The notes under the pieces were generated by a model that ran no database searches, was not told the DNA's origin, and saw only the letters and a list, made by a program, of their open reading frames with translations. From Artemia franciscana (taxonomy: Eukaryota > Arthropoda > Branchiopoda > Anostraca > Artemiidae), in assembly GCF_032884065.1 (NCBI RefSeq), contig NC_088863.1, positions 62,193,512 through 62,257,511 of the forward strand: 64,000 nucleotides of DNA. The letters are read 5' to 3'. The translations under genes and the position numbers were made by a program. Below are positions 2,141-56,304 of this stretch, piece after piece (the first letter of the stretch is position 1; every line of letters starts with the position of its first letter).

Positions 2141-4655
2141 AAAAAAAACAAGAGCTAAGAGCTCATATGGCACTTGTGACGAGGTCGGAAGAGCCAAGAG
2201 CTCATATGGTATGCGCTCTAGCAAAATTCTACGAATCAATAGATTGCTTTAAAAGGAAAATCAGAGGCTTAATGCCAGTCGGGATTAAAATAAGAGCTCT
2301 GAGTCACGGGGTCCTTGTAAACATCAAAATTCATTAAGACCCTATCATCCACTCGCAAGTTAAAAATACCTAAATTTTTCTAATTTTTCCTCTCCCTTCA
2401 GCCCCCCAGATGTTCGAATCGGGGAAAACGACTTTATCAAGTCAATTTGTACAGTTCCCTGACACGCCTACCAATTTTCATCGTCCTAGCACGTCCAGAA
2501 GCACCAAACTCGTCAAAGCACTGCACCCCACCGTCTAACTCTCCCAAAGAGAGCAGATCCAGTCCGGTTACGTCAGTCACATATCTACGACATTTATAAG
2601 CATTTTCCAAAATTTCTGGTTTCCCCCTCCAGCTCCCCCTGATGTCAGCAGATCTGGTCGGGATTTGAAACAAGAGCTCTGATACATGAGTTTCTTCTAA
2701 ATATCATATTTAATTAAGATCCGGTCACGCGTTCTTAAGTTATAAATACCTCAATTTTTCTAACTTTTCCAAATTAACATCCCCCAGCTCCCCTAAAGAG
2801 AACGGATCCGTACCAATTATGTCAATCTCGTATCTATAACTTGTGCTTATTCTTCCCATCAAGTTTCATCCCGATATCTCCACTCAAAGAGTTTTCCAAG
2901 ATTTCCAGTTTTCAAGATTTCTGTTTCCCCCCTCCAACCCTATATGTCCCCGGATCCGATTCCAATTGAAAATGGATCATCTGAGACATAAGATTCTTCT
3001 ATATATCAAGTTTCATTGAGATCTGATCACCCATTCGTAAGATACCTCGATTTCACGTTTTCTAAGAATTCCGGCTTCCCCCTCCAACTCCCTTCAATGT
3101 CACCGGATCTAGTCGGGATTTAAAATGAGTTTTAAAGCAAAAGATCCTTCTAAATATGATCACCTGTCCGTAAGTTACAAATACCTCATTTTTCCGAATT
3201 ACTCCCCCCACCCCGACTCCACCAAAGAGAGCGGATCTGGCTATGTCAGTCACCTATCTTGGACTTGTGCTTATTCTTTCCACCAAGTTTCATCCTGATC
3301 TCTCCACTTTAAGCGTTTTCCAAGATCTTCAGTACCCCCCACTAATGACACTGGACCCGGTCGGGATAAAAAATATCCGTTCCGGTTATGTCAATCCCGT
3401 ATCTAAGACTTGTGCTTATTTTCCCCGCCAAGTTTCATCCCGATCCCTCCACTCTAAGCATTTTCGAAGAGTTTAGGTTCCCCCCTGCATCCCCCTCACC
3501 GGATAAGGTTCTGAGAGCTCTGAGACATGATTTCCTTCCAAACATCAAATTTCATTCAGATCCGATCACTCCTTCGTAAGTTAAAAATACCTCATTTTTC
3601 TAATTTTTCAGAATTAACCCTCCCCCCACTCCCCCAAAGAGAGTGGATCTGTCCCAGTTATGTCAATCACGTATCTAGGACTTGTACTTATTTTTCCCAC
3701 CAAGTTTCATCTCAAACCCTCCACCCTAAGCGTTTTCCAAGATTTTAGGTTCCCCCCTCAATTACAACCAATGTCACCGGATCCAAGCGGAATTTAAAAT
3801 AAGAGCTCTGAGACACGATATCCTTCCAAACTTCAAATTTCATTAAGATCCGATCACTCCTTTGTAACTTAAAAATACCTCATTTTTCTGATTTGTTCAG
3901 AATTACCTCCTCCTCCCCCAAACAGAGCGGCACCGTTCCGGTTATGTCAACCACGTAGCTAGGACTTATGCTAATTTTTCCAACCAAGTTTCGTCCCGAT
4001 CCCTCCACTCCAAGCGTTTTCCAAGATTTTAGGTCCCCCTCAATTCCCCCCCCCCATGTCACCGGATCCAGTCGGGATTTAAAATAAGAGCTCTGAGACA
4101 CGATATCCTTCCAAACTTCAAATTTCATTAAAATTCGATCACTCCTTCGTAAGTTAAAAATACCTCATTTTTTCTAATTCTTCAGAATTACCCCCCCCTC
4201 CCCCAGCTCCCCCAAACAGAGAATGTTCGTCCCGGTTATGTCAATAACGTATCTAGGACTTCTGCTTGTTTTGCCACCAAGTTTCATCCCGATCCCTACG
4301 CTCTAAGCGTTTTCCAAGATTTTAGGTTCCCCCTCCAAGTCCCCCAATGTCACCAGATCTGGTCAAAATTTAAAATAAGAGCTCTGAGACACGATATCCT
4401 TCCAAAAATTGAATTTCATTAAGACCCCATCACCTGTTCGTAAGTTAAAAATACTTCATTTTTTATATTTTTTTCCGAATTAACCGGCCAAGATGGTCAA
4501 ATCGAGAAAATGACTATTTCTAATTTAATCTGGTCCGGTCCCTGATACACATGTCAAGTTTCATCGTCCTAGCTTGCCTAGAAGTAGCAAAACCGGGACA
4601 GACAGACAGAATTTGCGATCGCTATATGTCACTTGGTTAATACCAAGTGCCACAA
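2141..4655. repeat. Array of ~290-bp repeats with subterminal inverted repeats and a 3' hairpin
   Basis: A degenerate array in which the same block recurs about every 280-300 bp, clearest from 3224 to 4213: an AAAGAGAGCGGATC-like start, then a GTTATGTCAATCACGTATCT-like segment, a CCAAGTTTCATCCCGATC-like segment, and AAGAGCTCTGAGACA. TGGCACTTG at 2168-2176 is matched in inverted orientation by CAAGTGCCA at 4644-4652, and a perfect 7-bp stem (4630-4636 with 4643-4649, 6-nt loop) sits at the right end. Short inverted repeats near both ends, a central tandem array and a terminal hairpin are the architecture described for Helentron-derived HINE/DINE-1 elements. That family assignment is inference. 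Some monomers are incomplete. Confidence 0.6.
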
Positions 4656-18176: not shown

Positions 18177-18292
18177 CTATACAGACTCTTTCATTCCTGT
18201 GCCGATTGGCCCGTGTCGCCTCTCCCAAGCCATTCTATGTTTTTGTCTCATAAAAGCGTCAATCACTGTGCCTCGAACACCAATTTCACCGT
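18177..18292 (-). CDS. NDUFB10: NDUFB10 coding exon 4 (last coding exon)
   Basis: Completes codon 124 as TAC (Tyr), then encodes GEIGVRGTVIDAFMRQKHRM and AWERRHGPIGTGMKESV, followed by TAG. The acceptor is CTTTTGTTTTCAG with CAG at 18293-18295. This acceptor is the last of five copies of a 33-bp repeat (see the repeat entry). The open frame continues upstream through all five copies, so a longer exon 4 is possible. Confidence 0.92.
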
Positions 18293-21200
18293 CTGAAAAC
18301 AAAAGTATATGATTAACAGCACCGTCTGAAAATAAAAGTATATAATTAACAGCACCGTCTGAAAATAAAAGTATATGATTAACAGCACCGTCTGAAAATA
18401 AAAGTATATGATTAACAGCACCGTCTGAAAATAAAAGTATATGATTAACAGTGATCCAAAAGAGTAATTCAGTAGAACCCCTAAACCCCTGGATCTGACC
18501 TTGACTGAGTATGACAAATATCGATGTGAACAACAGGAAAAAACTACGTCAGTGATGATGATAGCGTTTATTTTATGTTTAAGTGACCGTGATCAAAATC
18601 AATTTTGGAGCCGTTTGAATTAAAAACTATTGCAAGATTTTGAATTATTATTTCATGGCTATTCAACTTTTGTTTGACAGAAACAACCAAATCATAGAGA
18701 TTTCATTTTGAAATTAAAATTACAGATTTAATATGAACAAGGGAATAAAATCTTCTTCGCAGATCCATGAAATGAAGCTTGAAGATTAAACAAACTTTAA
18801 GGTAACATACGCAAAACAAAACTAATTAATAAAACTAAAGAAAGTAAGAGGTGCAAAAGAAAAAATCAAACTCAGAATAATTAACACTAGTTTCTAACTT
18901 TGTCCCAAACACTGTATTTTTGCCAGTTTTTTTTTTAAATTTAAATTGCAAAAAAATACAATTAACACGGTCCTTCCTTTTTAATTTGGGACAAAATTGA
19001 GACACAGTTTAATTATGATACCATACCCCTGCCAAAGGCTATTGAAACTATGAAAAGAGAAACAAACAAATAGAAGGGAACAATAATAATTTGAAAAATT
19101 GGGTGCACATTGTATAATTTGACCTTCTCAAGTACCCTTGCCGTTTCTGGATTATGACCTTGTGAAATCCTGGGAATCTATGCCTAAAAAACGATATTCA
19201 ATGAGTTTTTTTTTAGTAAAACTAATCCAAGAACAATGGATAATTGGCATAATCAGGATAATAGTGGGAATTCCGTCGACTCTGGAGACATTCTAGCCTT
19301 GGACTTTGGGGGAGGGGGCAACAAAGGGTACGAGAGATATTTTGAATCATGTTTGGGGTTTAATGTAAACTTATTAATAATCTGAGGATTAACAGTCGTT
19401 TAAATGAATTCAGAGCGATATCACATCTTTTACGCCGGCCTTATTTGATACCTGTTCTAGGGCGGATTCAGTGTTTTTGATGTGAGTTTAGCTTGATAAA
19501 GATAAATACAGCGGCAAATTTCAACTGTTTGCCTGTTGGTAGCTGTGTTCTAGATCCTGCTGGAAATATAGCTGTTACCCGTGGTTTATTTAAACGGCGT
19601 GTATTGCAGCACTTTGCTTCACGTCGGTAAGTAAATGAGCCAATTAAGTTAGACTTATTTATTATATTTATTGAATCTAAGGTGGTCCAAAAGAAGAATA
19701 AACACAATGTTTTCTGGTTTGTCTTCGGATGGTATTACCTTGAAGTCTGGGTGATAGCTTGTCGGAAGTTTTACCAACAGTTAAAGATAATGCTAAAACC
19801 TTCGCTGCCCTTAATTAGAGTATGAAGACAATGGAGGATCAGATTTCTAAACTGGAACCTGTGACTCAGGACTCTGTTAGAGAAGTCGCCATCTGAAAGC
19901 CACAGGTGGATAGAGTACGATCAATAACAGAGGATTTAAAGCTTCGAGTACATGTCTTGAGTGACGAATGTGCGAACGTAAAGGCACAATTGAGCACTAT
20001 GTGGCAAGTGCTTATGATGGATGAAAGTAAAGAGACCGATAAGAATATACTAATTCGGAATATTTCGGCTAAGGATAGTGATGATGCAATGACGCAAAAA
20101 CACTGCTTGAAGACACCGTTTCACAAAGACCTGAAATGAGTGTGAATCTCGAATGCTCAGTGATGGAAGGTAACTCGGTAAAAAAGTTTTTGAAAGTTAA
20201 GGTAAAAGTTAAGGAATTGAAGTGAGAGATATTAATGAATGCACGGCGACTTCGTGATAAAACAGTGGTGAATCTGTCGAATATTCACCTAACTGATGAT
20301 TTCCGATACCTGTACGAGAAACTCGTAAAAAATTGTTTGCATACCGGAATAAATTGCGCACACTTGCAATACAAAGCCTTGAAGCATCGGGCACGAAATC
20401 TGTCCCACCCTATTTATGTTTTATTGATTTTGTAAATTGTTTTTTGGTGGAGTGAAATGAGGGTAAAAAGTCATTTTTATTTTCGTGAAATTTAACTGTA
20501 ATTGATTAGTGACATGATGTAGGTCTGGCGCAACCATTCTGAATTGGCTGCGATCTAACAATGGTTTTATCCATGGTTCTTGGGAATCTGGATATAATGT
20601 TGTGTGATTATAAAAGGTTTTTTTTTTTTTTTTTTTTTTTTTGGAAATATTACTGTTTAGGAGCGCAGTCAGGTTGCTAAGATATTTTTGTGGGAAAGTG
20701 GATAAGGAAACAACTGAGCTACTTGAGAGAAACCCTGTTGACTTTTATGCTAAGGTGCATGTTGTGTTGAGAGAAAGGTTTGGTGAAGAGAGTAGAAGGG
20801 AGAAGATTGAGTCATTGAAATAAATATTTGCAAGTGAGTTAATGTGTAGTTAAAGTATTCGATATAAGAGTGAGTTGGTTATGTTTCACCTTGATTTTAG
20901 GGGGCTAAACAGTTTGCAGTCATATTTGTCTGAGTGAGTTCGAAATGGCACAGATATTCAAATTTTAGGAATGACTGAGACATGGTTGAATTCTTCAAAT
21001 GAAGCACTGCTTGATATTAATGGTAAAATTTTTTTTTGGATAAATAGGAGAACGCGGAAGCATGGTGGATTGGGTACACACGTGAAGTCGGACCTGGAGG
21101 TAAAGTTAAGGAAGGATTTGTCTCTTTATTTAAAATTGTGTTTGAGAGCATTGTACTGGAACTAAAGCTGATGCAGTCTAGTATTTATTTAGTTGCTTCA

Positions 21201-28597: not shown

Positions 28598-31500
28598 TAG
28601 CTGGGTCCTGGTGGCTTTGCCACCGGGCCTCAGCACGGCACACGCCAGGCATCTATATATGGATTCTCATTGTCCCTTGTGTTGTAACCAGAGACAGTGC
28701 TGGGTCCCGGCAGCTTTGCCACCGTGCCCCGCGGGCCCCAGCATGGCACGCGGCAGGCTTCTATATATGGATTCTCATTGTCCCTTGTTTTCTGGTTCCT
28801 GGCAACGCTAGGTCATTTTTGGATCGAAATGATGACGTAAATTGGACATTCCTAATCTGGCCCTTTCTCTTTGAGCCGCAAGCCTGGTTTTGCGTTGCTC
28901 TGGTGTTCCCTTTTTGGTGACATTGTAGGATAATTATATACGCATTGCTTTTGCAATATAGCGACACGCCTTCTTTTACTATCTCTATTAGCCGCAAGCC
29001 TGGTTTTGCGTTGCGAACATGACGTCATTTATAGATTTTTATTATTTATTATTTTTTTCCTTTTTTTATTTTTTTTAATATTTTTAATTTTTTTGATGAC
29101 ATATTTTAGTTTTTTCTTTTTTTAGCTTCTTTTTAATTCTTTTAAGTTTTTTTTTAGTTAGTTTTTTTTTTAATATTGACGTCATACTTAGTGACAGATA
29201 GACAGTGTAACGATAAAGATAGTGTAACGGACAGACGGACACTACATTTTTATATATATAGAAGACTAGCTGTTGGTGGGCACCCCAAAACCTAGTTGGT
29301 GGGGCGCTTCACGCCCCCCCCCCCCCAAGCCCCCCCGCGCGCGTAAGTCGTTACGCGCCATATTAGTTACGCCCCATTGTAGTTGTGTCCCTGTGTCCCG
29401 ACTGTGAATATAGATAGATTTATATATGTGTTTCAAACTACGTAAAAATTGCGATGCAATCGGACACGCATATTTGTAGTTAATTTTAATATTTTTACGT
29501 GTGCCCATAAATTAGAATTTTTCAGGCAAGCATTCATTTCGTCTGCAGGAGTTAAATTACGTAAAAATTGCGAATATACAACATTCTTGGCTTTCCCATT
29601 GTCTGTGCATATACAAAGCCGTATGTACTAATAATGACGTCATATGCAAACGCTCTTTTTACAAACAAACAAACATGCATACACACAACTCGTTTTTATA
29701 TAGATAGATAGATAGATAGATACAATACAAATTAACTGCGTAAAACTTGCGAATATACAACATTCTTCGCTGTCCAATTGTCGCTGCATATAAATAGATT
29801 GTCAGGTTTACCGACCCTCGAACATGCAACGTACAATTGTCCATGGGAAAAACAATCAGTATTAAGATTATACCACATTTTTCTAATGATTGACCTTGAG
29901 CTTTGTTAATGGTGATTGCAAATGCTAATCGAATTGGGAATTGCAATCTTTTAAATTGAAAAGGCAGATCCGTTGGAATCATGGGAATGCGAGGAATAAG
30001 AACAGCCTCACCCTCAAAAGGCCCTGTCAAGATTGTGGCCTCTATTAGGTTTTCCATTGTTTTTTTTTACGGCAAGTCGCGTGCCATTGCAAAGCTTTGG
30101 TGGGTTGATATTTCTTAAAAGTATTATTGGTACGTCTATTTTTAGTTGTAGCACGTGTGGTGGAAACCCTGAAAGATCTATGGAATTTAAAAATTCAGAA
30201 GGATAATTAACCGCTTCATTTGGTTCCAAAACTGTGTCGAGTGACTTGTAAAGGACTGCCTGGTCTCGAATCTTCAAAACAATATTGTTGATTTCGTGGA
30301 CGTCTATATTTTTGGGTGCGAGAATCGCTCTTTCACTTAGCCATTTATTATTTTTATAATTTTTTAGAATATCCGGAAATACTTTTTCAATCAATTCTTT
30401 TTTGGACGTCACTAAATTACAGAAATCAGCAGGTAGTTGTATACGTCCTGAAATTGAGTCTGCTGGGAGCTTTCCGTTTCCAATTGCCAGCAATTGATCT
30501 GAAAATGTTTGACCAGAGTGATCGTTTTGCAATCGGACACGCATATTTGTAGTTAATTTTAATATTTTTACGTGTGCCCATAAATTAGAATTTTTCAGGC
30601 AAGCATTCATTTCGTCTGCAGGAGTTGATCTAGGTATTATAGGTAATGTTTGCCTGAAATCTCCCGCAAGCAATATTAATGTGCTGCCAAAGGGTTTCGA
30701 CTTCCCTCTCAAATCTTTCAAGCATTGATCCAGAGCCTCGAGCGATTTTTTGTGTGCCATTGTGCACTCATCCCAAATAATAAGTTTGCATTGCTGCAAT
30801 ACTTTACCCATCCCAGATGATTTGGAAATATTGCACGTGGGAGTTTCTGTAGAATGCAAATTCAGAGGCAATTTCAAAGCGGAATGAGCAGTTCTTCCAC
30901 CAGGCAGCAATATTGCGGCTATTCCGGACGACGCAATTGCCAACGCTATATCATTTTTTGATCGAATTGATGCCAGAATCAGTTTTATCACAAACGTTTT
31001 ACCAGTACCTCCTGGCGCATCCAAAAATAAAATTTCTCCAACGTTGTTATCGACACAATGCATTATCGTATCATAAATGTCTTTTTGTTCCGACGTTAAC
31101 TTGGAAATGTTATTTTGTACATACGACAATAGATCACTCGTACTGTAACTTTGTTCACGATCCAATTCTACACATGTCGAAACAGCAGCGATACGGTTAG
31201 GTGAAGGCATTCCCAAATCCTGAAGAGGTTTGTTTGTCATACGAGTCTGCTTTCGCGTTGCTCTGGTAGTTCCTCGGCTCGCTTTCTGTTCTTTCTTTCT
31301 CTATCAGCCTCAAGCCTGTTTCCTTGCTGTTCTTTTGATTCCTCGGCACGCTTTCTGTTCTTTCTTTCTCTATCAGCCTCAAGCCTGTTTCCTTGCTGTT
31401 CTTTTGATTCCTCGGCACGCTTTCTTTTCTGACTTTCTCTATCAGCAGCAAGTTTTTTGGCATAGACTCTTTGAGCATCTCCATCGGCTTTTGCCATTGT

Positions 31501-32928
31501 AAGTTCATCAGTCATTTTAAACTTAAACATTAATAGATTTCTACGTGAACATATATGTCAAACAAATACAACGTAGAAACAATAGGGAAAGTTTTTTCAA
31601 GACAATGGAAATTATTTATGTAGATATTTCGGCCCTATGTCCAAGGGCCGTCATCAGCACAATACAATACTATATATATATAAAAGAACTTACATCAAAT
31701 TGTGAGAATTAAAACTGAATATAAAAACACTTATTAAAACAATTTTTTTTTAAAATATAGCCCTAGCATCCTTACTTCAGCGAAGTTCAACCAGTCCTGG
31801 TTGAACTTCGCTGAAGTAAGGATGCTAGGGCTATATTTTAAAAAAAAATTGTTTTAATAAGTGTTTTTATATTCAGTTTTAATTCTCACAATTTGATGTA
31901 AGTTCTTTTATATATATATAGTATTGTATTGTGCTGAAGACGGCCCTTGGACATAGGGCCGAAATATCTACATAAATAATTTCCATTGTCTTGAAAAAAC
32001 TTTCCCTATTGTTTCTACGTTGTATTTGTTTGTTATGGAAAGGCAGTGTGGTCTTCGTCGCTATTTTCGAACATATATGTCTTAAATATCTTTAATGACG
32101 TCACCGTCATAGCAAAAATGACGACAACTAACTTCATGATTAAATATCTTTAATGACGTCACCGTCATAGCAAAAATGACGACAACTAACTTCATGACGT
32201 CAGTCGACACAGAAACATGACGTCACCTGACAGACAGACAACTTATTTTTATATATATAGATATATGTGTAATTATAAAAATAATAGAAAATAGTTTTAA
32301 ATTTTCTTCTGCACCCATATTTCCCGCTACCCAATTAAAAAAAAACCATCATCTGAGTAAATATTCAAATTCGTTTCTGATACAGATTAAATTTGAAAAA
32401 ATTCTTTCTCTGGCCAACATTTGTTTTTTAATAATAAAAACTTGCTGCTATAAATATGTACAGTAGATATTGAATCATCTTTAGTAGATATTCGAAATTT
32501 GCTCCGAGAAGTATAATTAGAGGAACTTAGGTTATTTTGCTTTCAACTAGACATGCCAGTCTTGCCATAGCTTATGCAGCAATCTCAGTTGATTGTTTTA
32601 CAAAATACTACTAGAGCCCAGAGTTGCCACTGGTAGCAATTTTAACACTTTAAAAATTGATCGTGGTGGTAAACCTGCTAGAGCCTACATTAACTTGACA
32701 GCAAGTGAATAGAAAAACTATCACTTTTCGATCCATGTTTCTAATCCCTTGAAAATTAACTGGTTTCCTTTGCTTGGCATTATAGCTTTTCAGTGTAGAG
32801 GAGCAGGCCAGTTAGACCAGCTCGGAGAAAGTAACTATCATTGGTTTTCATGTTGTATATCGACTTCATACAAAACCTTTAATTTCCAGTGTACAGACAG
32901 TAAGGAAGTAAAAACGACCAAAGGATTG

Positions 32929-35900: not shown

Positions 35901-38900
35901 TAAAACATTACACACAAAAAAAAACACTACAACTAAACACACGATGAAAAAAATGATAACAATAAATAAATAAGAAACTCTAATTATAAACAAACTTCTA
36001 GCACTGGTGTTACAAAACTTAAGAAAATACCAAATCAAATGTGTATAGTGAAAAAATACACATGATAACATGAAAAAAATGATAACAATAAATAAATAAG
36101 AAACTCTAATTATAAACAAACTTCTAGCACTGGTGTTACAAAACTTAAGAAAATACCAAATCAAATGTGTATAGTGAAACCATGGGTCACTCTCCTCTGA
36201 ACAATCAGTGTATAAATGAGAATCTATTAAAAATGAAGACTATATTTATATGAACAGACAAAAGAAGGTCACCAAACCCGAGGTCCATCACCCCTAATTA
36301 TGTCTTACAGGTTAATGAACATTTACATGAATTATAAATTAAATGGATTTTTTGTTTGTTTGCTAGTTTAGCTGCAGTCCGTTGATTTTTCCCAGCATTG
36401 ACCTCATTCTGACTTTTGTTCGCAAGGTTATCACTTGTTTCAGGACAACTATTTAGATCACAACTCGTTAAAGTTTTTACCTGGTACTTCATTAAACTAT
36501 TATAAATTGAATTTATCTTAAAATCTCCCTCATCTCTATTAATGTTAATACCCCCATAGGTATTTTTTTTTATTTCTATAATTTCTTTGAAACTTTGCAA
36601 AAGTCCAACAGATGTATCTAGAATTTTTGTCTGATCAAACAAAATATTGTGATGAGGAAAAGTATAGGCTATATGTGTTCTACTATAGCTAATTCAAATG
36701 TTTCAGGTTTTTTTTTATTATATTTTAGCGAGCAAAATTTGGCATTTTTGTGTCACTGTAGCCTATTTTCTGTATTTTCTACCTACATAAAATTTACAAC
36801 AAGAGCATGGAATTTTGTATAACCCCTTTTGTATGTGTTTTGGAACTTTGTCTTTTCTATTATTTAGCAAAGAGTTTATAGTTTGTCTTGATTTAAATGT
36901 TGTTTTTATATTATATTTTTTTAGTTCTCTTCTTAACTTCTGTGACTAAATTGGGATATAAGGCAAAGTTATTTGATTTGTTTTTTGAGTTGACCCATAT
37001 TCTTCTAATATTATAGGTTCCATTAACTTTTTTTTTCATTTTCTCAATTATTTGAGAAATCATATTTTCAGGATATCTATTCCTACTAGAATATCTATCT
37101 GTATATAAATGAGTTGTTTGTCTGTTGACTGACGTCATGTTTGTGTGTCTACTGACGTCATGTTTGTCGACTGACGTCAATATAAGAATTGAGCTGTATG
37201 TCGTCATGAAGTTGTTTGTCGACTGACGAAATTACAGACCGGGACAGCGGGACACAAATGACGACCGGGACACAGGGAATATAAAAGACGGCCGGGACAC
37301 TAAGAGAAATTACAGACCGGGACACAAATGACGACCAGGACACAGGGAATATAAATGACGACCGGGACACTCAAAGAGAAATTACAGACTGGATCACTGG
37401 GACACAAATGACGACCGGGACATAGGGACACAACTACAACGGGGACGCCGGAGGGCATATAAATGACGACGGGGACACAGGGAATGTTCGATTAGTAATT
37501 ACCATCAACAAAGCTCAAGGGCAATCATTAGAATAATGAGGTATAGATCTGAATACGGATTGTTTTTCCCATGGACAATTATATGTTGCATGTTCAAGAG
37601 TCGGTAAACCTGACAATCTATTTATATGCACAAACAATGGGACAGCGAAGAATGTTGTATATTCGCAAGTTTTACATAGTTAAAAACATATATATATCTA
37701 TCTATATTCACAGGTGGGACACAGGGACACAACTACAATGGCGCGTAACGACTTACACGCGCAGGGGGGCTTGGAAGGGGCGAAGCACTTCCACCAACTA
37801 GGTGTTGGGGTGGCGCAAAGCGCCACCCCAACAGCTAGTCCTTAATAAAAATTAATTCACTGCTGATGTATTCTGGTAATGCTATTTTTAATACCCTACC
37901 AACTAAAGAATTAACTACCCCCCTTTTTACTTGGATTGGATGATTTTTTGCGAAAGACATATAACGATTGTTGTTAGTTAGTTTACGATAAATTGAAAAA
38001 GTTAGTGCATTATTATTTCTATAGATCCAAATATCCAGAAACGATAACTTATTCTCTGTTTCTTTTTCAATTGTAAAAACTCATTCCCCTCCCAAATTAT
38101 TTATATGTTCCAGAAAACCTTCAATTTTTGATTCTCCATTATTCCAAATAACTAAAATGTCATCCATATATCTGCCCCAAAATTTAGGTTTAAATGTTTC
38201 AATAGCTAAAGTTTCTGCAAAGTCTGCATAAATATTTGCTAACAGCAGACTTAAGGGCCCTCCCATTGCTAACCCTCTTATTTGCTGGTAAAATTATCTC
38301 TGAACTTGAAATAATTAGTATACCTTCCCGTTATTTTAACTAAATTTAATTTAGTTTCTATCTTTATTCCAACAGATACTACTTCAATCTCACTCTTATG
38401 TTCATCAATTTTTTTTTTTTGCTAAAACACAAACAGATTTATCGAAAGGTATATACGTATACACTGATTTTATATCAAACCTAGAAACTCTAGATTCATT
38501 TGATATCTCAATATTTATAAGTTTATTTTTTAAGAATTCTGAGCTTTTTACATAGGAATTCTGGAGATATAATAAAGGTTCAAGTTTCATTGCTACCTGT
38601 TTTTCGATTCTTTCTGTTGGTGAATTAGTTGTTGATACTATAGGTCTTAGAGGAATACCTGTTTTATGATCTTTGGCAAACCATACATTCTTGGGCAGAC
38701 TGAACCCCTCGGAAAGAACTTGTAATACGTCCGTGCCCTGATATTTCGATTAGTTTCAAGGCCTTCTAAGTCCTTTCTTAATTTTGCAACATACGATTCA
38801 GTTGGGTCTGAGTTACGTTTCTTGTTTGTTGAAATATCTTTTAGAATCGTTCTTTCAATTTTTTTTTATCTTTATTCTTAAGGTTTTTTTTGAAAATTTA

Positions 38901-41900
38901 CAATATTAAAATCTTTTGAAAACACATGAATCCCTGTCTCAATCTTTGAAACTATTTTTTCTACCGGTACTTTTTTAGGATTTAGTCCAAATTTTATACC
39001 TTTTTCAAGGATTTCCTTTTGTTCTTTGGTTACCTCTCTTTTGCTTAAATTAATCACACCAGGGCCTGGGAAATGTTTATGTTTATACGATGATATTTTT
39101 GTTTTTCATGTTCCCTTTTTAATTGCAAGAATTTTTTGTTTAATCTTTCTCTAGATAACCCTAAAAGATGTTCAAAGAATTTTTAAAAATTGATATACTT
39201 TGTTAGAAATCATACGCATTAAGAAAATCAAAAAGGCTATTAAAAAAAAAAATCTATTTCTTGTACAACTTGTGATCTCTACAAACGTTTATCTTTCCAC
39301 ACATGGTTTAAATTTAGTAAATTTACCTTTCTCGTGTGATTAGCCTCATTATATGTATTTAAATGATACTTGAAACGAAACAATTTTGAAATTATTTTAT
39401 TTTCTCTAAAATTTTCTAAAACTTTTGTTGCGTAATTATATTGGCATGTTTTTTTCGATGATTATAGAGGTGCTGGAAGTTTGTTTATAATGTGAGTTTC
39501 TTATTTATTTATCGTTATTATCTTTTTCTTCTTCTTCGAGAGTTTAGTTGTAGTCTTCTTTTTGTGTGTGTTATGTTTAAAAAGACTTCTTTTTCTTTTT
39601 GCCGGACTCTTTCTTTTTTCTGTTAAGAAAGGGTCCCAGACATGGGGCTGAAATGTTCGGAATATCTATTATTTTTAAAAAATCAAATTGTTGTTTTGTT
39701 TTTATTTATTGCTTTGTTGAAATTAAAACCCGTTTTTTCTTCCTTAATTTTTTCATATTTAAAAGAAAATTAAAAGTTCTGGTGTTGTTTTTAAGTGACC
39801 AAAAAGATTGAAGGACAATTGGCCCCCTGCCATGCTCCTTTTTCGCCTTAAATTACGTAATCAAAATTTTTAGATTGTTATTTTGTTATGTGTAGTTGCA
39901 AGATCAAATAATTATGTCTTTAGGTGTAAAATGATCTACTACAGTCCATGGGGAAAGGCCTGAAGTTATGAAATTCGTCCATTCTTTAGATATAGTATTT
40001 GTTATTGGAGAGTATACAGATATTTGGGGGGGGGGGGGGGGGGTGGTGTGCGCTTGGGGTGGATTTCCATGGGGAAATGCTAGACTGGGAGGATTTGACA
40101 GAATTATTATACGAAATTCTTTTTAGTTATCCTAAATTCTCTTTGCCAAATTCTACATGTGAAGATGTTCTGGAGGAATTACCAGTAGCTTTTTTGAGTA
40201 TTTCGATTTCTGGGATATAATTTCCACGGAAGGGAGCATTTGTAGAGTGATCAAGAAACCGATTAGAGATTAAAGTCTTATTCAAATGAAAGAATGCTTA
40301 GGAAAATTTTCAGGCTGAATCGTCCACAAGTAGCCTAATTTTACAGTGAAGGGGACTCTCATTGAGGATGGAAGGATGGAGGGAATTTGAAGGAGGAGGT
40401 GAAATTGGAGTTTTTCAACGGAGAAGTTTTCCGTGATTGGCAGGATAAAATTTCCTAGAGGTTGAGCAAGATTTACAGGCATTATTTCAAAAACAAACAG
40501 AAATTATTCTGTATATATAGGGTTACTCCTTCCTCAATGCCTTGTTTTTTACGCTTAATTTTGACTGTCTGTCCTAATTTTTTAAGAGCATCTAATGAAA
40601 CATGGGGTCCGTTTAATTAGAATAGGAAGCTTTGTTAAAAGTGCTAACAACTTTAGCGTAAAGAGCAAGGTATTGAGGAGGGGGATACCCTTCATATACA
40701 GAATAATTATGCTAAAATAAATATGTAAATTTTGTTTTGACTTTTCATCTACAGTGAGCCAAATTCAAACATGCATTATTTGAAAAACATTTAGAAATTG
40801 AAATTAAAAAAGAAGTTTTTTTTATCCAAGAGTAAGGATCGAAATTAAAATGAACAGAAATTATTACATATATGAAAGGGACCGTTCCCTCCTCAACGCC
40901 ACACTCTTTATGCTAAAGTTTTACTTTCTGTCACAGCTATACTTTTTAGAACAATGAAAACTAGTGTGAAGAGCGAGGCGTTGAGGGAGGAGGGACAGTC
41001 CCTTTTATATACGTAACAATTTCTGTTCGTTTTGATGTCGATTCTTAGTTTCTATTAAAAAATTTGTTTTTTGCGTTATTTAATTGTTAGCTAAAGTACC
41101 ATGATCATATATCTGCGATTAAAGCCTATCTTCTCTTATTTTGGTTTTTTGGCTTCTCTGATTTGGTCTTTTCCACTTTAGTCTTTGAGCTGGACTATAA
41201 ACTATATGCAATCTAGTTTTAAAGATGATAATTTTGTCCAAGTCTTGATTAGAATATTTTCGGTTTACCACCAAAATTTTAAAACGAACTTTGAGATGGT
41301 GAAGGATTTTTATACTGTTAGACAAATCTAAAGACAAACTGATAAGTTAATTAAATGTTATTTGAGCATTGTAAACGAAATTAAATTCGTGACAAAATTT
41401 GTTACTTGTATTCTTATAAACCATTTGACAATCCCTTTGTAATTATTGGTTCTCGGACTCTCGGCCTTTTAGCTAAGATCAAAATGTAGTATCTGTTCTT
41501 ATCCGCTTAATATCTGATATGGCCTCTACATGGGGCAGGGAATATTAAACTGATTTTGAGGAATCAGATGGATGTCGGGCTTTGTTCCTCTCCTTTCATG
41601 CGTTGACCCAGTATTTCAGTATCTCTGGATTCAGTACACTCCTGTCCAGGGAAAACCCCATGCTCATGCCCCCAATTTGATTTACACTATCAAGTATTTC
41701 AACTCTGATACAGAAAACGCCTTAGTTGGATTGGATTCCAGATTCGTCTTTTTTGAAAATAGTCTGTAATTATTGAATACTGGAATTTGAATTAAACTAA
41801 AAGTTAAGCAGAATTGCTGAAGCAATTTGTTTCGGCCTCAGACGGCTTGGTGGTGTAGTGAGTTGTTAGTAGCAGCAATAATGACTAAAGCCCCCCTTGG

Positions 41901-42505
41901 TTGTTCACAAGAAAATAGTTGCCCTAATCAGTAAAATGGGCACTGGGCCACATAAATTTAAGTTTAGTGTATTCAGCCATGTTGATAACAGAGCGAGACT
42001 CTTTTCTCAAAAAGGTAAATGTTCATTCAAACGATTTAGACGTTTGCATAGCAAAGGGAATGTGGCATTGCTATTTTCAAATAAGACAACAACTGTGCAA
42101 TGGAACAATAAAAATTTCATTGGAAGTCAAATTTGCTAGGTTTAGCTATTGAAAAAAAAAAAACAACTGGATGATTACTACAGAGTAGTCAAAATCAGAA
42201 ATGATTTTGAAGGGTCAAATCAGGTTCCATTTTTGAAAAATGGCAACATTGCAAAACAGTAACTCAACTTTAATTATTATGACACCCTTTTTAAATTTTG
42301 GTCTTTCTTTTTAAAGCGATAAGGATCTCGTTACTTGATAACAATATTGATATGTTACTAAACATTTGACAAAACTACAAAAAAAGAAGAAAAAATCGAG
42401 ATGGTACTTACCTCTAAAATATCTTGCTGGTGCAGTAAAAGTAGAAACCACCTTGCTCATTCCCCTAAGAAATGTAGGTTCTTCATAATCAGTTGTGCCA
42501 CCCAT
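18177..42505 (-). CDS. NDUFB10: NADH dehydrogenase (ubiquinone) 1 beta subcomplex subunit 10 (PDSW), 4-exon gene
   Basis: Accessory subunit of mitochondrial complex I on the intermembrane-space side of the inner membrane. The coding sequence is the join of minus-strand segments 42412-42505, 34185-34323, 27344-27480 and 18177-18292 (94+139+137+116 = 486 nt, 161 codons plus stop). Every intron starts GT and ends AG, and the phases agree (codons 32, 78 and 124 are split). Diagnostic blocks: IVEPNRKQ and YHRTFRRVPTIDECYTDDYI (residues 34-65), then QKHRMAWERRHGPIGTGMK (140-158), the conserved C-terminal signature of arthropod PDSW proteins as I remember them. Paired cysteines C59/C66 (CX6C) and C95/C106 fit the disulfide pairs of the family, which lacks a cleaved presequence. 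Length matches insect homologues. The ATG has a purine at -3 and G at +4. Introns are full of transposons but the reading frame is clean, so the gene looks functional. Confidence 0.9.
18288..18452 (-). repeat. NDUFB10: 33-bp x 5 tandem repeat containing the NDUFB10 intron 3 acceptor
   Basis: Five head-to-tail copies (18288-18320, 18321-18353, 18354-18386, 18387-18419, 18420-18452), with only one or two differences per copy. On the gene strand each unit reads GCTGTTAATCATATACTTTT then a T-rich stretch ending CAG|ACGGT: a TTAAT branch-site-like pentamer, a pyrimidine tract and a CAG acceptor. CAGs lie at 18293-18295, 18326-18328, 18359-18361, 18392-18394 and 18425-18427. In the NDUFB10 frame each unit reads GAVNHILLFSD (one has NYILL) with no stop. 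Confidence 0.95.
18453..19735. other. NDUFB10 intron 3, unassigned AT-rich sequence
   Basis: Between the acceptor repeat and the LINE there is AT-rich sequence with poly-A/T runs. I recognise no gene or element. A short frame at 19468-19707 (minus) has no motif. Confidence 0.4.
19740..23045 (+). mobile_element. Degraded LINE with ORF1, endonuclease and reverse transcriptase, antisense in NDUFB10 intron 3
   Basis: Order on the plus strand matches a two-ORF LINE. ORF1-like coiled-coil segment about 19820-20135 (EDLKLRVHVLSDECANVKAQ, then KNILIRNIS, as in LINE ORF1 proteins). Endonuclease about 20930-21640 (ILGMTETWLNSSNE, GGLGTHVKSDLEVK, later LVNDVSDHCAVLVSYQQQ, the conserved SDH block). Reverse transcriptase about 22000-23015, with LVPLYKYNDQEDLSNYRCIS, GVPQGCPLGTLFFSIYMNDM near 22676-22737, LVLFADDTNFLAA near 22806 (catalytic FADD intact) and VKYLGVIVDEILSF. 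Stops and frame changes throughout show it is dead. A poly-T run lies at about 20618-20641. Clade looks Jockey/I-like, uncertain. Confidence 0.75.
23046..24060. other. Unassigned intronic sequence with a purine-rich tract
   Basis: Mostly AT-rich. Between about 23400 and 23590 the plus strand is strongly A/G-rich (AAGAAAAACAAG-like), low complexity. Open frames here are composition artefacts. Confidence 0.4.
24060..24560. repeat. Diverged member of the hairpin repeat family
   Basis: Contains GCGATATTAAAACGCACAGA, then AATTATTTCATA, and twice the TTTGCGCTAAAGTTTTGCTT-type segment (near 24278 and 24420), which match the arms of the hairpin family at 5.7-6.5 and 62.5-64 kb but are much more diverged. 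Boundaries are vague. Confidence 0.35.
24866..25286. mobile_element. Short non-autonomous hAT-type DNA transposon (421 bp)
   Basis: The segment is flanked by the same 8 bp, CTCTAGAG, at 24858-24865 and 25287-25294. This fits the 8-bp target duplication of hAT elements and their preference for NTCTAGAN sites. The right end, read inward, starts CAGTGGCTCCCAAC and the left end CCATGATTCTTAAT: an imperfect inverted pair related mostly by transitions and close to the hAT terminal consensus CAGNGGTTCTTAAC. There is no transposase. A third CTCTAGAG at 24960-24967 inside the element is probably incidental. Confidence 0.65.
25300..26620. other. NDUFB10 intron 3, unassigned
   Basis: AT-rich sequence with no feature I can support. 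Confidence 0.4.
26630..27170. repeat. Dispersed repeat with G-rich runs and CTGTAGGGGGGTATTGCGGC end
   Basis: Starts with GGGCCGTAACCAGGGGG near 26656 and ends, on the minus strand, with CTGTAGGGGGGTATTGCGGC near 27122-27142. A closely similar block, CTGTATAGGGGTATTGCGGC, appears on the plus strand near 33191-33210. It looks like the end of a repeat family present twice, in opposite orientation. Non-coding, class unknown. Confidence 0.35.
27344..27480 (-). CDS. NDUFB10: NDUFB10 coding exon 3
   Basis: Acceptor TTTTTTCTAG, donor CAAAGT|GTAAGT. Encodes the last base of codon 78, residues 79-123 (LVDQNICNILKNRFTECLRS, EHPDIGNCDKIKEDWQLAET, NYFSK) and the first base of codon 124. It corresponds to the helical middle of the subunit with the second cysteine pair (C95, C106). 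Confidence 0.9.
27485..28500. other. NDUFB10 intron 2, unassigned
   Basis: AT-rich. The frames at 27704-27910 and 27903-28214 (minus) have no motif. Confidence 0.4.
28528..28596. repeat. (TA)n microsatellite
   Basis: Almost pure TA dinucleotides over about 68 bp, directly abutting the 3' end (CTAG) of the adjacent Helitron. Helitrons insert between A and T, so this may have been the target. Confidence 0.95.
28597..29262 (-). mobile_element. Non-autonomous Helitron (666 bp), minus orientation
   Basis: In minus orientation it begins with TCTATATATATAAAAATG at 29262 and ends with a GGTGGC-AAA-GCCACC hairpin followed by AGGACCCAG and CTAG at 28597-28600, then host T. A 5' TC, a 3' hairpin plus CTAG and A/T target flanks are the Helitron signature. 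The 5' end is shared with the larger Helitron next door but the 3' hairpin differs, so it is a different subfamily. Internally there is a duplicated GGCAGCTTTGCCACC-like segment and a poly-T rich block (29035-29175). Confidence 0.75.
29455..29553. repeat. 99-bp duplicate of a helicase segment in the Helitron 3' region
   Basis: The block from TGCAATCGGACACGCATATT to CTGCAGGAGTT at 29455-29553 repeats the helicase-coding block at 30528-30626 in the same orientation, with no difference that I can see. It is bordered on both sides by ACGTAAAAATTGCGA, itself duplicated. Confidence 0.85.
29659..31240 (-). pseudogene. Helitron Pif1-like DNA helicase, frame-shifted
   Basis: A 408-codon minus-strand frame (31240-30014) holds an SF1B helicase domain: Walker A DAPGGTGKT (residues 74-82), Walker B IIWDE (154-158), motif III LAGDFRQTLP (191-200). 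The C-terminal part continues in another frame (30057 downward) with VLIPRIPMIPTDLPFQFKRL and motif VI AITINKAQGQSLE. The switch falls at a homopolymer run at about 30058-30068, so one indel separates the halves. The usual N-terminal Rep (HUH) domain is missing. This is the unwinding enzyme of rolling-circle transposition. In this copy it is probably inactive. Confidence 0.85.
31197..31530 (-). pseudogene. Helitron protein N-terminal segment with 24-residue repeats
   Basis: The minus-strand frame begins MTDELTMAKADGDAQRVYAK and then has three copies of a 24-residue unit (RKRAEESKEQQGNRLEADRE type) encoded by a 72-bp tandem repeat (first copies at about 31294 and 31366). Such charged repeats are found upstream of helicase domains in arthropod Helitron proteins. 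It ends in a stop at 31237 and is out of frame with the helicase. Confidence 0.6.
31560..32068. mobile_element. Palindromic insertion (2 x 236 bp) with 13-bp target duplication and hammerhead-like core
   Basis: The arms 31559-31794 and 31797-32032 are reverse complements around a TC centre; I could find only one mismatch. The whole insert is flanked by the direct repeat GAACATATATGTC (31547-31559 and 32069-32081), as expected of a target-site duplication. The outward half of each arm holds CTGATGA (31651-31657, minus) or CTGAAGA (31934-31940, plus), then a CGGCCC/GGGCC stem and GAAATATCT. That is the CUGAUGA-stem-GAAA core of hammerhead ribozymes, known from terminal repeats of Penelope-like elements. 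It is probably a Penelope-related retrocopy. Confidence 0.7.
32082..32197. repeat. 58-bp tandem duplication in the Helitron 5' region
   Basis: Two consecutive copies of TTAAATATCTTTAATGACGT followed by CACCGTCATAGC and CTAACTTCATGA (32082-32139 and 32140-32197), apparently identical. Confidence 0.9.
32265..34180. other. NDUFB10 intron 2, mostly unassigned
   Basis: Contains a poly-A run of about 33 nt at 32929-32960 and the CTGTATAGGGGTATTGCGGC repeat end near 33191. No gene recognised. Confidence 0.4.
34185..34323 (-). CDS. NDUFB10: NDUFB10 coding exon 2
   Basis: Preceded by the acceptor TTGCTTTATTTTAG and followed by donor GTATGC. Encodes residues 32-77 plus two bases of codon 78: ENIVEPNRKQDAVWYHRTFR, then RVPTIDECYTDDYICRHEAD and EQFKRD. 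This is the best conserved block of the family and carries the CX6C cysteine pair (C59, C66). Confidence 0.92.
34330..35860. other. NDUFB10 intron 1, unassigned; possible LINE 3' end
   Basis: AATAGAATTTATTTGCACTT then AAAGCCCATG near 34512-34545 resembles reverse-oriented 3' ends of some invertebrate LINEs, but no coding part is attached. The rest is AT-rich without signal. Confidence 0.3.
35942..36180. repeat. ~128-bp tandem duplication, Penelope-terminal-like
   Basis: Two nearly identical copies (about 35942-36052 and 36070-36180) of a segment starting ATGAAAAAAATGATAACAAT and ending CAAATGTGTATAGTGAAA. The AAGAAACTCTAATTATAAAC part followed by AAACTTCTAGCAC resembles, in inverted orientation, the sequence at about 39470-39530 next to the Penelope-like element, so both may belong to its terminal repeats. 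Confidence 0.6.
36290..39690 (-). mobile_element. Penelope-like retroelement, minus strand, interrupted by a Helitron
   Basis: Read from 39450 downward, the pieces follow the order of Penelope-like elements. The N-terminal region has NYATKVLENFRENKIISKLF, RFKYHLNTYNEANHTRKVNL and VWKDKRL. The reverse transcriptase has MGGPLSLLLANIYADFAETL and the YMDD box RYMDDILVIWN (TAC/ATG/GAT/GAC at 38159-38170). Then comes PENMISQIIEKMKKKVN, and a C-terminal GIY-YIG nuclease region (GV-YK / YVGR-like near 36800) ending with FKEIIEIKKNTYGGININRD. The element is old and carries many breaks. Between 37094 and 37838 it is split by a small Helitron. A degenerate hammerhead-like motif lies at about 39618-39665. 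Confidence 0.8.
37094..37838 (+). mobile_element. Non-autonomous Helitron (745 bp) inserted in the Penelope-like element
   Basis: Starts TCTATCTGTATATAAATGAG after an A (37093). Ends with a perfect 13-bp hairpin (37804-37816 with 37820-37832, loop AAA) and CTAG at 37835-37838, followed by T. Near its 3' end are remnants of the helicase C-terminal coding region (ACCATCAACAAAGCTCAAGG near 37501, matching the TINKAQGQSLE block). The middle is a degenerate array of GACGACCGGGACACAGGGAA-type repeats. No target duplication, as expected. Confidence 0.85.
39770..41060. repeat. Dispersed hairpin repeat family, copy 2
   Basis: Begins AATTAAAAGTTCTGGTG followed by AAGTGACCAAAAAGATTG (the same start as at 62735). 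It continues through a G-run at 40026-40043 and contains two hairpin modules: 40490-40710 and 40840-41060, each with ACAGAAATTATT-type arms and CTCTTTA-GC-AAAGTTTT. Lies in NDUFB10 intron 1. Confidence 0.6.
41444..41640 (+). pseudogene. U2 snRNA pseudogene or divergent copy
   Basis: The sequence follows U2 snRNA over its whole length. TCTCGGCCTTTTAGCTAAGA, then TGTAGTATCTGTTCTTATC (the GTAGTA branch-site-pairing element intact at about 41486-41491). GCTTAATATCTGATATG-GCC follows, then AATATTAAACTGATTTTGAG in place of the Sm-site region (normally ATTTTTGG). The 3' domain AATCAGATGGATG continues to CGTTGACCCAGTATTTCAGT, corresponding to GGUUGGCCCGGUAUUGCAGU. Near the 5' end TTCTCGGAC duplicates part of TCTCGGCC. 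The changed Sm site, the 5' duplication and many substitutions suggest a pseudogene. It lies in NDUFB10 intron 1, antisense to the gene. Confidence 0.8.
41641..42405. other. NDUFB10 intron 1, nothing recognised
   Basis: AT-rich intronic sequence between the U2-like copy and exon 1. Confidence 0.4.
42412..42505 (-). CDS. NDUFB10: NDUFB10 coding exon 1
   Basis: Encodes residues 1-31 plus the first base of codon 32: MGGTTDYEEPTFLRGMSKVV followed by STFTAPARYFR. It ends at the strong donor AGAG|GTAAGT (GT at 42410-42411). The next exon restores codon 32 as GAA (Glu). N-termini of PDSW proteins are variable, so the start is chosen as the only ATG that gives an open frame into the donor. A further non-coding 5' exon cannot be excluded. 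Confidence 0.85.
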
Positions 42506-55641: not shown

Positions 55642-56304
55642 GTGGAAATAAATATGATGAGAAATTTGTTATTAGGCACTGATGTAGTGAGGCGTTGTGT
55701 CGAGAGAGATGAGGCTGATGAAGGGGCGGACTGCAGTCGACCGAGGGAGTTAGCGGCTGACATGGCAGAAAGGAGTTCCGTACATGGGATAATAACAGCC
55801 GATAGGGCGGAAAAGAGTTCCATACCTGAGGAGTTAGCGGCTGACATAGCGGAAAGGAGTTCCATACATGGGATATTAACAGCCGATAGGGCGGAAAAGA
55901 GTTCCGTACCTGAGGAGTTAGCGGCTGACATGGCGGAAAGGAGTTCCATACATGGGATATTAACAGCCGATAGGGCGGAAAAGAGTTTCATGCCTGGAAA
56001 AATAATAGATAATAATTTCGCGTCTTGGCTGTTAAATATTTTTGACGGTCTTTTTCTAAATGAAGGTGTTCTTTATTGTTATCCATTAGGAGGTGTTGGT
56101 AAGGACAATGGGATCCCTAGAACAGCTAAATTAGTTCTGCCAGGTATCCTAGTAGACTCGGCAATAAAACTGGCTCATGATCACTTACTCATTGGTGGTC
56201 ACATGTCTATGGAGAAGACATTAGACCGAGTGAGCCGTACCTTTATATTTGAGAGAATGAACACAAAAGTTCGAAGGTATTGCGAAAACTATAGAGTCAA
56301 GTAG
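55642..56304 (+). pseudogene. Integrase zinc-binding remnant preceded by an 84-bp repeat
   Basis: The C-terminal part of this frame (LPGILVDSAIKLAHDHLLIG, GHMSMEKTLDRVSRTFIFER) is the N-terminal HHCC zinc-binding region of Gypsy-type integrases. The middle has three copies of a 28-residue unit (AADMAERSSIHGILTADRAE type) encoded by an 84-bp tandem repeat at about 55751-56000. It is a fossil remnant inside a deleted element. Confidence 0.7.

Follow-up and report, generated by a model that had tools for sequence, protein, structure and literature searches.

If the 3' splice site of an intron is itself repeated in tandem, which of the copies is used, and does the protein change with the choice? 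This question is raised by the NDUFB10 gene in the 64,000-nt stretch of Artemia franciscana DNA that was analysed here (the window). A first-pass annotation had claimed that the intron 3 acceptor of this gene lies within a 33-bp repeat present five times, and this was confirmed both with Tandem Repeats Finder and with a pattern search. Judging from the sequence, we lean somewhat towards the view that at least one upstream unit would be used to a measurable extent, in a mixture of isoforms.

NDUFB10 is located on the minus strand and has four exons, which together encode a product of 161 aa:

42505-42412, minus strand: exon 1, with the ATG at 42505 and the donor GAG/GTAAGT; codes for MGGTTDYEEPTFLRGMSKVVSTFTAPARYFR and the first base of E32
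34323-34185, minus strand: exon 2
27480-27344, minus strand: exon 3, with 27344 as its last base and the donor AGT/GTAAGT
18292-18177, minus strand: coding part of exon 4, from the ancestral acceptor to the stop codon TAG (18179-18177)

An AATAAA motif was found 3' of the stop, at 18104-18099. For exon 1 we listed candidates of 20-45 codons with G as the last base, giving four rows with two donors under the pattern GTRAG and 21 rows under GTR. The exon at 42505-42412 was picked by eye from these rows and then checked by its Pfam and fly matches; an earlier search for exon 1 with an ad hoc motif filter had retained none of 13 candidates. With exon 1 included, the Pfam score was 163.3 bits instead of 151.9, and the match with the fly protein was extended to cover residues 18-160 of the 161. 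The score of 163.3 bits was obtained against PF10249.14 (cut-off 22.2), with residues 25-149 of the product corresponding to positions 2-126 of the 126 in the profile, and chain 8esw_BL matched residues 18-160 with an E value of 5.2e-50. With its near whole-length profile match and intact frame, the product was assigned to the complex I subunit PDSW. The top solved chains were 8esw (173 bits) and 8b9z (169.7 bits), with all remaining chains at 72.8 bits or below, in a set where few species have solved structures; both top chains are presumably from Drosophila, and their lead over the rest would fit an arthropod. The donors of exons 1, 2 and 3 matched the consensus at 8, 7 and 7 of 9 positions, respectively. 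As the frame is unbroken across all four exons, the gene does not resemble a pseudogene, and it looks complete from its sequence. As is to be expected of an animal gene, the product had no relative in viral contigs, and six pattern matches in prokaryote contigs yielded no confirmed one.

Several other elements were also seen in the window. Intron 2 of NDUFB10 contains a perfect inverted repeat at 31559-32032, whose two 236-nt arms are 100% complementary and separated by 2 nt. It represents an artefact of assembly or else a fold-back element of very recent origin, and lies next to a helicase reading frame. This PIF1-like frame (30014-31240, minus strand, also in intron 2) matched PF05970 with 229.5 bits. 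A second reading frame after it had no Pfam match (both lie within 29659-31240, minus strand), and a 69-bp tandem repeat (31270-31446) was found just upstream of the helicase frame; the region 29659-31240 looks like a broken element of the Helitron type. Decayed reverse-transcriptase-like reading frames were recognized by eye at 36300-39000 (minus strand), and may resemble Penelope-type elements, going by their motif. An ORF at 55642-56304 (plus strand) encodes an integrase H2C2 zinc-binding domain (PF17921, residues 169-216) with an in-frame 84-bp tandem repeat (3.0 copies, 55746-55996) ahead of it in the same ORF, and may represent a retroelement-like protein with an in-frame repeat. Finally, a 285-bp unit is arrayed in tandem at 3514-4463 (3.3 copies).

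The array at the intron 3 acceptor was detected by Tandem Repeats Finder at 18287-18451, with a period of 33 bp, 5.0 copies, 97% matches and 0% indels. The span given earlier, 18288-18452, denotes the same array but is offset by one base. The array and its units, numbered in transcript order, are:

18287-18451, minus strand: five-unit 33-bp array, unit CTGTTAATCATATACTTTTATTTTCAG/ACGGTG, found by Tandem Repeats Finder and pattern search
18419-18451, minus strand: unit 1, 5'-most in the transcript; first exon base 18424; potential addition of 44 aa
18386-18418, minus strand: unit 2; first exon base 18391; potential addition of 33 aa
18353-18385, minus strand: unit 3; first exon base 18358; potential addition of 22 aa
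18320-18352, minus strand: unit 4, one substitution compared with units 1-3; first exon base 18325; potential addition of 11 aa
18287-18319, minus strand: unit 5, one substitution in the pyrimidine tract compared with units 1-3; first exon base 18292; canonical protein

Read on the gene strand, each unit consists of the last 27 nt of the intron followed by 6 nt of exon, and is built of a TTAAT branch-like motif, a pyrimidine tract, CAG and ACGGTG. The claim that every unit would hold TTAAT, a pyrimidine tract and CAG/ACGGT thus agreed with what was found in all five. Allowing up to three mismatches, the pattern search gave five matches within the whole window, as compared to none in 100 shuffles, and no dispersed copy of the unit was found elsewhere in the window at this threshold; the repeat pattern also had no match in viral contigs. 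Units 1-3 have the same sequence; relative to them, one base is changed in unit 4 and one in unit 5. This near-identity suggests that the array is young, and because the unit includes exon bases the array derives from the intron 3 splice site of NDUFB10 itself. The substitutions between units (n = 2) are too few for any test. We consider it highly improbable that the copy number is an artefact of assembly or haplotypes: three of the five units are identical and short-read assemblies may miscount such arrays, but units 4 and 5 can each be told apart by a base change of their own, the 165 bp fit in single reads of common lengths, and a miscount would leave the acceptors duplicated unless their true number were one.

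Joining exons 1-3 to 18292, 18325, 18358, 18391 or 18424 gave open proteins of 161, 172, 183, 194 and 205 aa, respectively, all in frame and with a single stop at the end. These five positions (first exon base, minus strand) were the acceptors proposed in the first-pass annotation, which had also pointed out that 33 is divisible by three and that the unit has no stop in the gene frame; both points are borne out by the five open joins. Its placement of the insertion between Tyr124 and Gly125 proved correct once exon 1 was set at 42505-42412. The added 11-residue unit was GAVNHILLFSD, as described, in three of the four cases, but the fourth reads GAVNYILLFSD. Going by the sequence, NDUFB10 could be produced in versions that differ in steps of 11 aa. 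The tryptic peptide YGEIGVR of the canonical protein is predicted to become YGAVNHILLFSDGEIGVR with one extra unit and YGAVNYILLFSDGAVNHILLFSDGEIGVR with two. Single-sequence AlphaFold prediction of the added units with the exon-4 tail gave strands at E3-10, E13-21, E25-32 and E35-43, roughly one for each added unit; with a mean pLDDT of 60.9 and a pTM of 0.39 their confidence is low, and we discarded them as evidence.

The open frame was compared with what is expected by chance. Tract-YAG sites were collected from the two strands of the window (n = 432), and a unit of 27+6 nt was read at each in all three frames. Of these 1296 readings, 718 were free of stops; leaving out the five sites of the array gave 708 of 1281 (55%). 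A stop-free unit with a length divisible by three is thus expected in about 18% of cases (55% x 1/3), so that the in-frame open unit is weak evidence for use, with a likelihood ratio of about 5 at most. At this frequency by chance, it was rejected as proof of selection.

The canonical protein indicates which acceptor is the original one. Its alignment with 8esw_BL has no gap at the junction (KYGEIG vs KYGDLG), the two single-residue gaps being elsewhere, and 18292 is therefore the ancestral acceptor. In another reading 18424, the first complete module, would be the main acceptor and the usual NDUFB10 would carry 44 extra residues. Unit 1 is transcribed earliest and is closest to the donor, and it forms a complete module, as do units 2 and 3 with the same sequence. 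Where a 3' splice site is duplicated the donor-proximal copy tends to be preferred, which would also favour 18424. However, a lead of 132 nt is minor in an intron of about 9 kb, and an insert of 44 aa in a conserved Pfam domain should be costly; it lowered the Pfam match from 163.3 to 150.1 bits and split it in two stretches. We regard this as very unlikely.

Next the strength of the five acceptors was assessed. With a simple scheme of untrained weights the local acceptor score was 3.82-3.85 for units 1-4 and 4.13 for unit 5, in comparison to 2.15 for the exon 2 acceptor and 5.72 for the exon 3 acceptor. Among the 474 AGs scored in intron 3 and the 200 nt past 18292, unit 5 ranked 12th and units 1-4 ranked 16th-19th. 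Since 11 of these AGs outscore unit 5 and units 1-4 come lower still, the local score does not settle which sites are used; the five acceptors are credible but not outstanding. In each unit the branch-like A of TTAAT lies 21 nt upstream of the exon start, with no AG between TTAAT and the AG of that unit. It had been argued that the first AG after the branch point is often taken. An excerpt of PMC1431707 indeed describes scanning in which the first AG downstream of the branch point is used, and this rule pairs each branch point with its own AG, but it does not give the choice among five near-identical modules.

The units do differ in context, as exon 4 directly adjoins unit 5 only. For the mRNA, according to an alternative explanation, the array would be just an intronic minisatellite: sequences in exon 4 (enhancers, terminal-exon definition) would fix 18292, and the upstream copies would be silent. 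Protein conservation points to 18292, the score of unit 5 is slightly higher than that of the other units, and the G of AGs 1-4 was predicted to be mostly paired (see below). An in-frame, stop-free unit would, on the other hand, be up to about five times likelier if the sites were used and filtered by selection. Taken together, we consider silent upstream copies possible but rather unlikely.

RNA folding was examined as a cause of unequal use. The 12-nt unit junction GACGGUGCUGUU is self-complementary via many wobble pairs, and one hairpin with the next copy was predicted at -13.0 kcal/mol. The G of AGs 1-4 had an unpaired probability of 0.06-0.10 across four span settings, as compared to 0.34-0.53 for the G of AG 5. 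The A showed the opposite: it was mostly unpaired in AGs 1-4 (0.70-0.99) and mostly paired in AG 5 (unpaired 0.30-0.40), which speaks against silencing of the upstream copies. The same holds for the stability of the array, which folds no stronger than its shuffles: when shuffled units were put in arrays of five, 369 of 1000 (dinucleotide shuffling) and 487 of 1000 (base shuffling) were at least as stable. For the whole region z was -0.71, with 20 of 100 shuffles equally stable, and in idealised arrays of 1-9 perfect units the last AG was not clearly free (0.09-0.21). Masking of AGs 1-4 by hairpins was rejected on the grounds of stability and of the pairing of the A. Neighbouring units (18287-18451, minus-strand RNA) can pair through GACGGUGCUGUU into a hairpin that touches the extra AGs, but they fold no better than shuffled arrays.

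Returning to the use of at least one upstream unit, the following course would account for the anatomy of the array. A local tandem duplication would have copied the 3' splice-site module of intron 3 plus the initial 6 nt of exon 4, followed by expansion of the array to five units. From general knowledge of splicing, U2AF and U2 could assemble on any of the five modules, each having its own TTAAT, and the second step would then use the AG belonging to the chosen module. With near-equal modules the result would be a mixture of transcripts for the 161-aa canonical protein and for forms with one to four extra units, GAVNHILLFSD or GAVNYILLFSD, between Tyr124 and Gly125. Because all isoforms are in frame, they would be expected to escape nonsense-mediated decay.

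In our view the array is a nearly neutral consequence of repeat expansion rather than a regulated switch. In a stronger version the acceptor minisatellite would act as a dial of protein length: the repeat number, changing by slippage, would determine a series of NDUFB10 isoforms 11 residues apart, of which some would assemble into complex I and differ between individuals or tissues; we find this very doubtful. Work on the effect of position on acceptor choice has otherwise mostly been done with artificial minigenes. If upstream units are used, the locus would offer a natural experiment in which five near-identical 3' splice modules follow one another and the position effect could be measured directly from junction counts, and a minisatellite would provide a route for stepwise lengthening of a conserved protein with its frame kept.

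How does the array compare with known systems? In NAGNAG acceptors the two AGs have a common branch point and tract, and compete at the second step. Excerpts of PMC3250501, PMC2375911 and PMC1449888 describe these tandem acceptors as two AGs 3 nt apart. The NDUFB10 array does not belong to this class, as its AGs are spaced by 33 nt and each has its own branch-like motif and tract. The likeness to a NAGNAG site that had been suggested is right in that close in-frame alternative acceptors are present, but it is loose, since whole 33-nt modules are repeated here instead of AGs 3 nt apart. NAGNAG sites consist of two AGs, whereas an array with a whole module every 33 nt could expand.

In the AGGT model of intron gain, a duplicated segment with AGGT supplies a new donor and a new acceptor. 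Intron gain by tandem duplication across AGGT is described in an excerpt of PMC4974935, and in both cases tandem duplication of genic sequence affects, or would affect, splicing. The NDUFB10 array falls outside this model, as no AGGT is present in the array or the 6 nt on each side. Nine GTs were scored in the array, matching 2 to 5 of 9 donor positions; without AGGT and without a good donor (best GT 5/9), a new intron is not expected. River prawn lectins were also considered as a parallel and rejected, since by an excerpt of PMC7536079 their 33/30-bp coding repeats belong to exon 2 and do not coincide with the alternative acceptors. Among the matches listed, as titles and abstract openings from searches that were partly aimed at other things and with most subscription journals outside their scope, there was no case of a complete acceptor multiplied in an array. 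Arrays with multiplied donors are already known; the acceptor-side array is apparently new, although its absence from the literature is not proven.

The closest relatives are therefore minisatellites of the ABCA7 and IFI6 type, in which every repeat unit carries the gene's own splice site, and this was found for all five NDUFB10 units, on the acceptor side. The intron-18 VNTR of ABCA7 has a 25-bp unit with the donor at the unit start and 23.7 units in the reference allele, and one-unit retention is about 2 ± 1%, the 2% being assigned to unit retention from the sentence order in the excerpt of PMC5954066. Extra splice sites are thus sometimes nearly silent, and this precedent counts against heavy use of the upstream copies in NDUFB10 and in favour of their being silent; the figure may, however, be lowered by decay, the frame being broken in ABCA7. 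In both genes a minisatellite of similar unit length adjoins an exon and contains its splice site. In ABCA7 it multiplies a donor, in a frame-breaking unit of 25 bp, whereas in NDUFB10 it multiplies an acceptor, in an in-frame unit of 33 bp. Splicing to the next unit has been observed for ABCA7, as the same excerpt reports, and its copy number varies among people, whereas the NDUFB10 array was read from one sequence.

The IFI6 minisatellite, like the NDUFB10 array, keeps the frame, with a unit of 12 bp. Turri et al. reportedly described it in 1995 as a minisatellite with multiple splice donors in IFI6 (6-16, G1P3). According to an excerpt of PMC4526556, two downstream repeat units act as donors and three mRNA species are formed, a precedent in favour of measurable use of upstream units in NDUFB10. 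Repeat units as splice sites are thus common to both genes, in IFI6 as alternative sites in use and in NDUFB10 as candidates. In IFI6 they act on the donor side of an interferon-induced gene, whereas in NDUFB10 they would act on the acceptor side of a conserved enzyme subunit.
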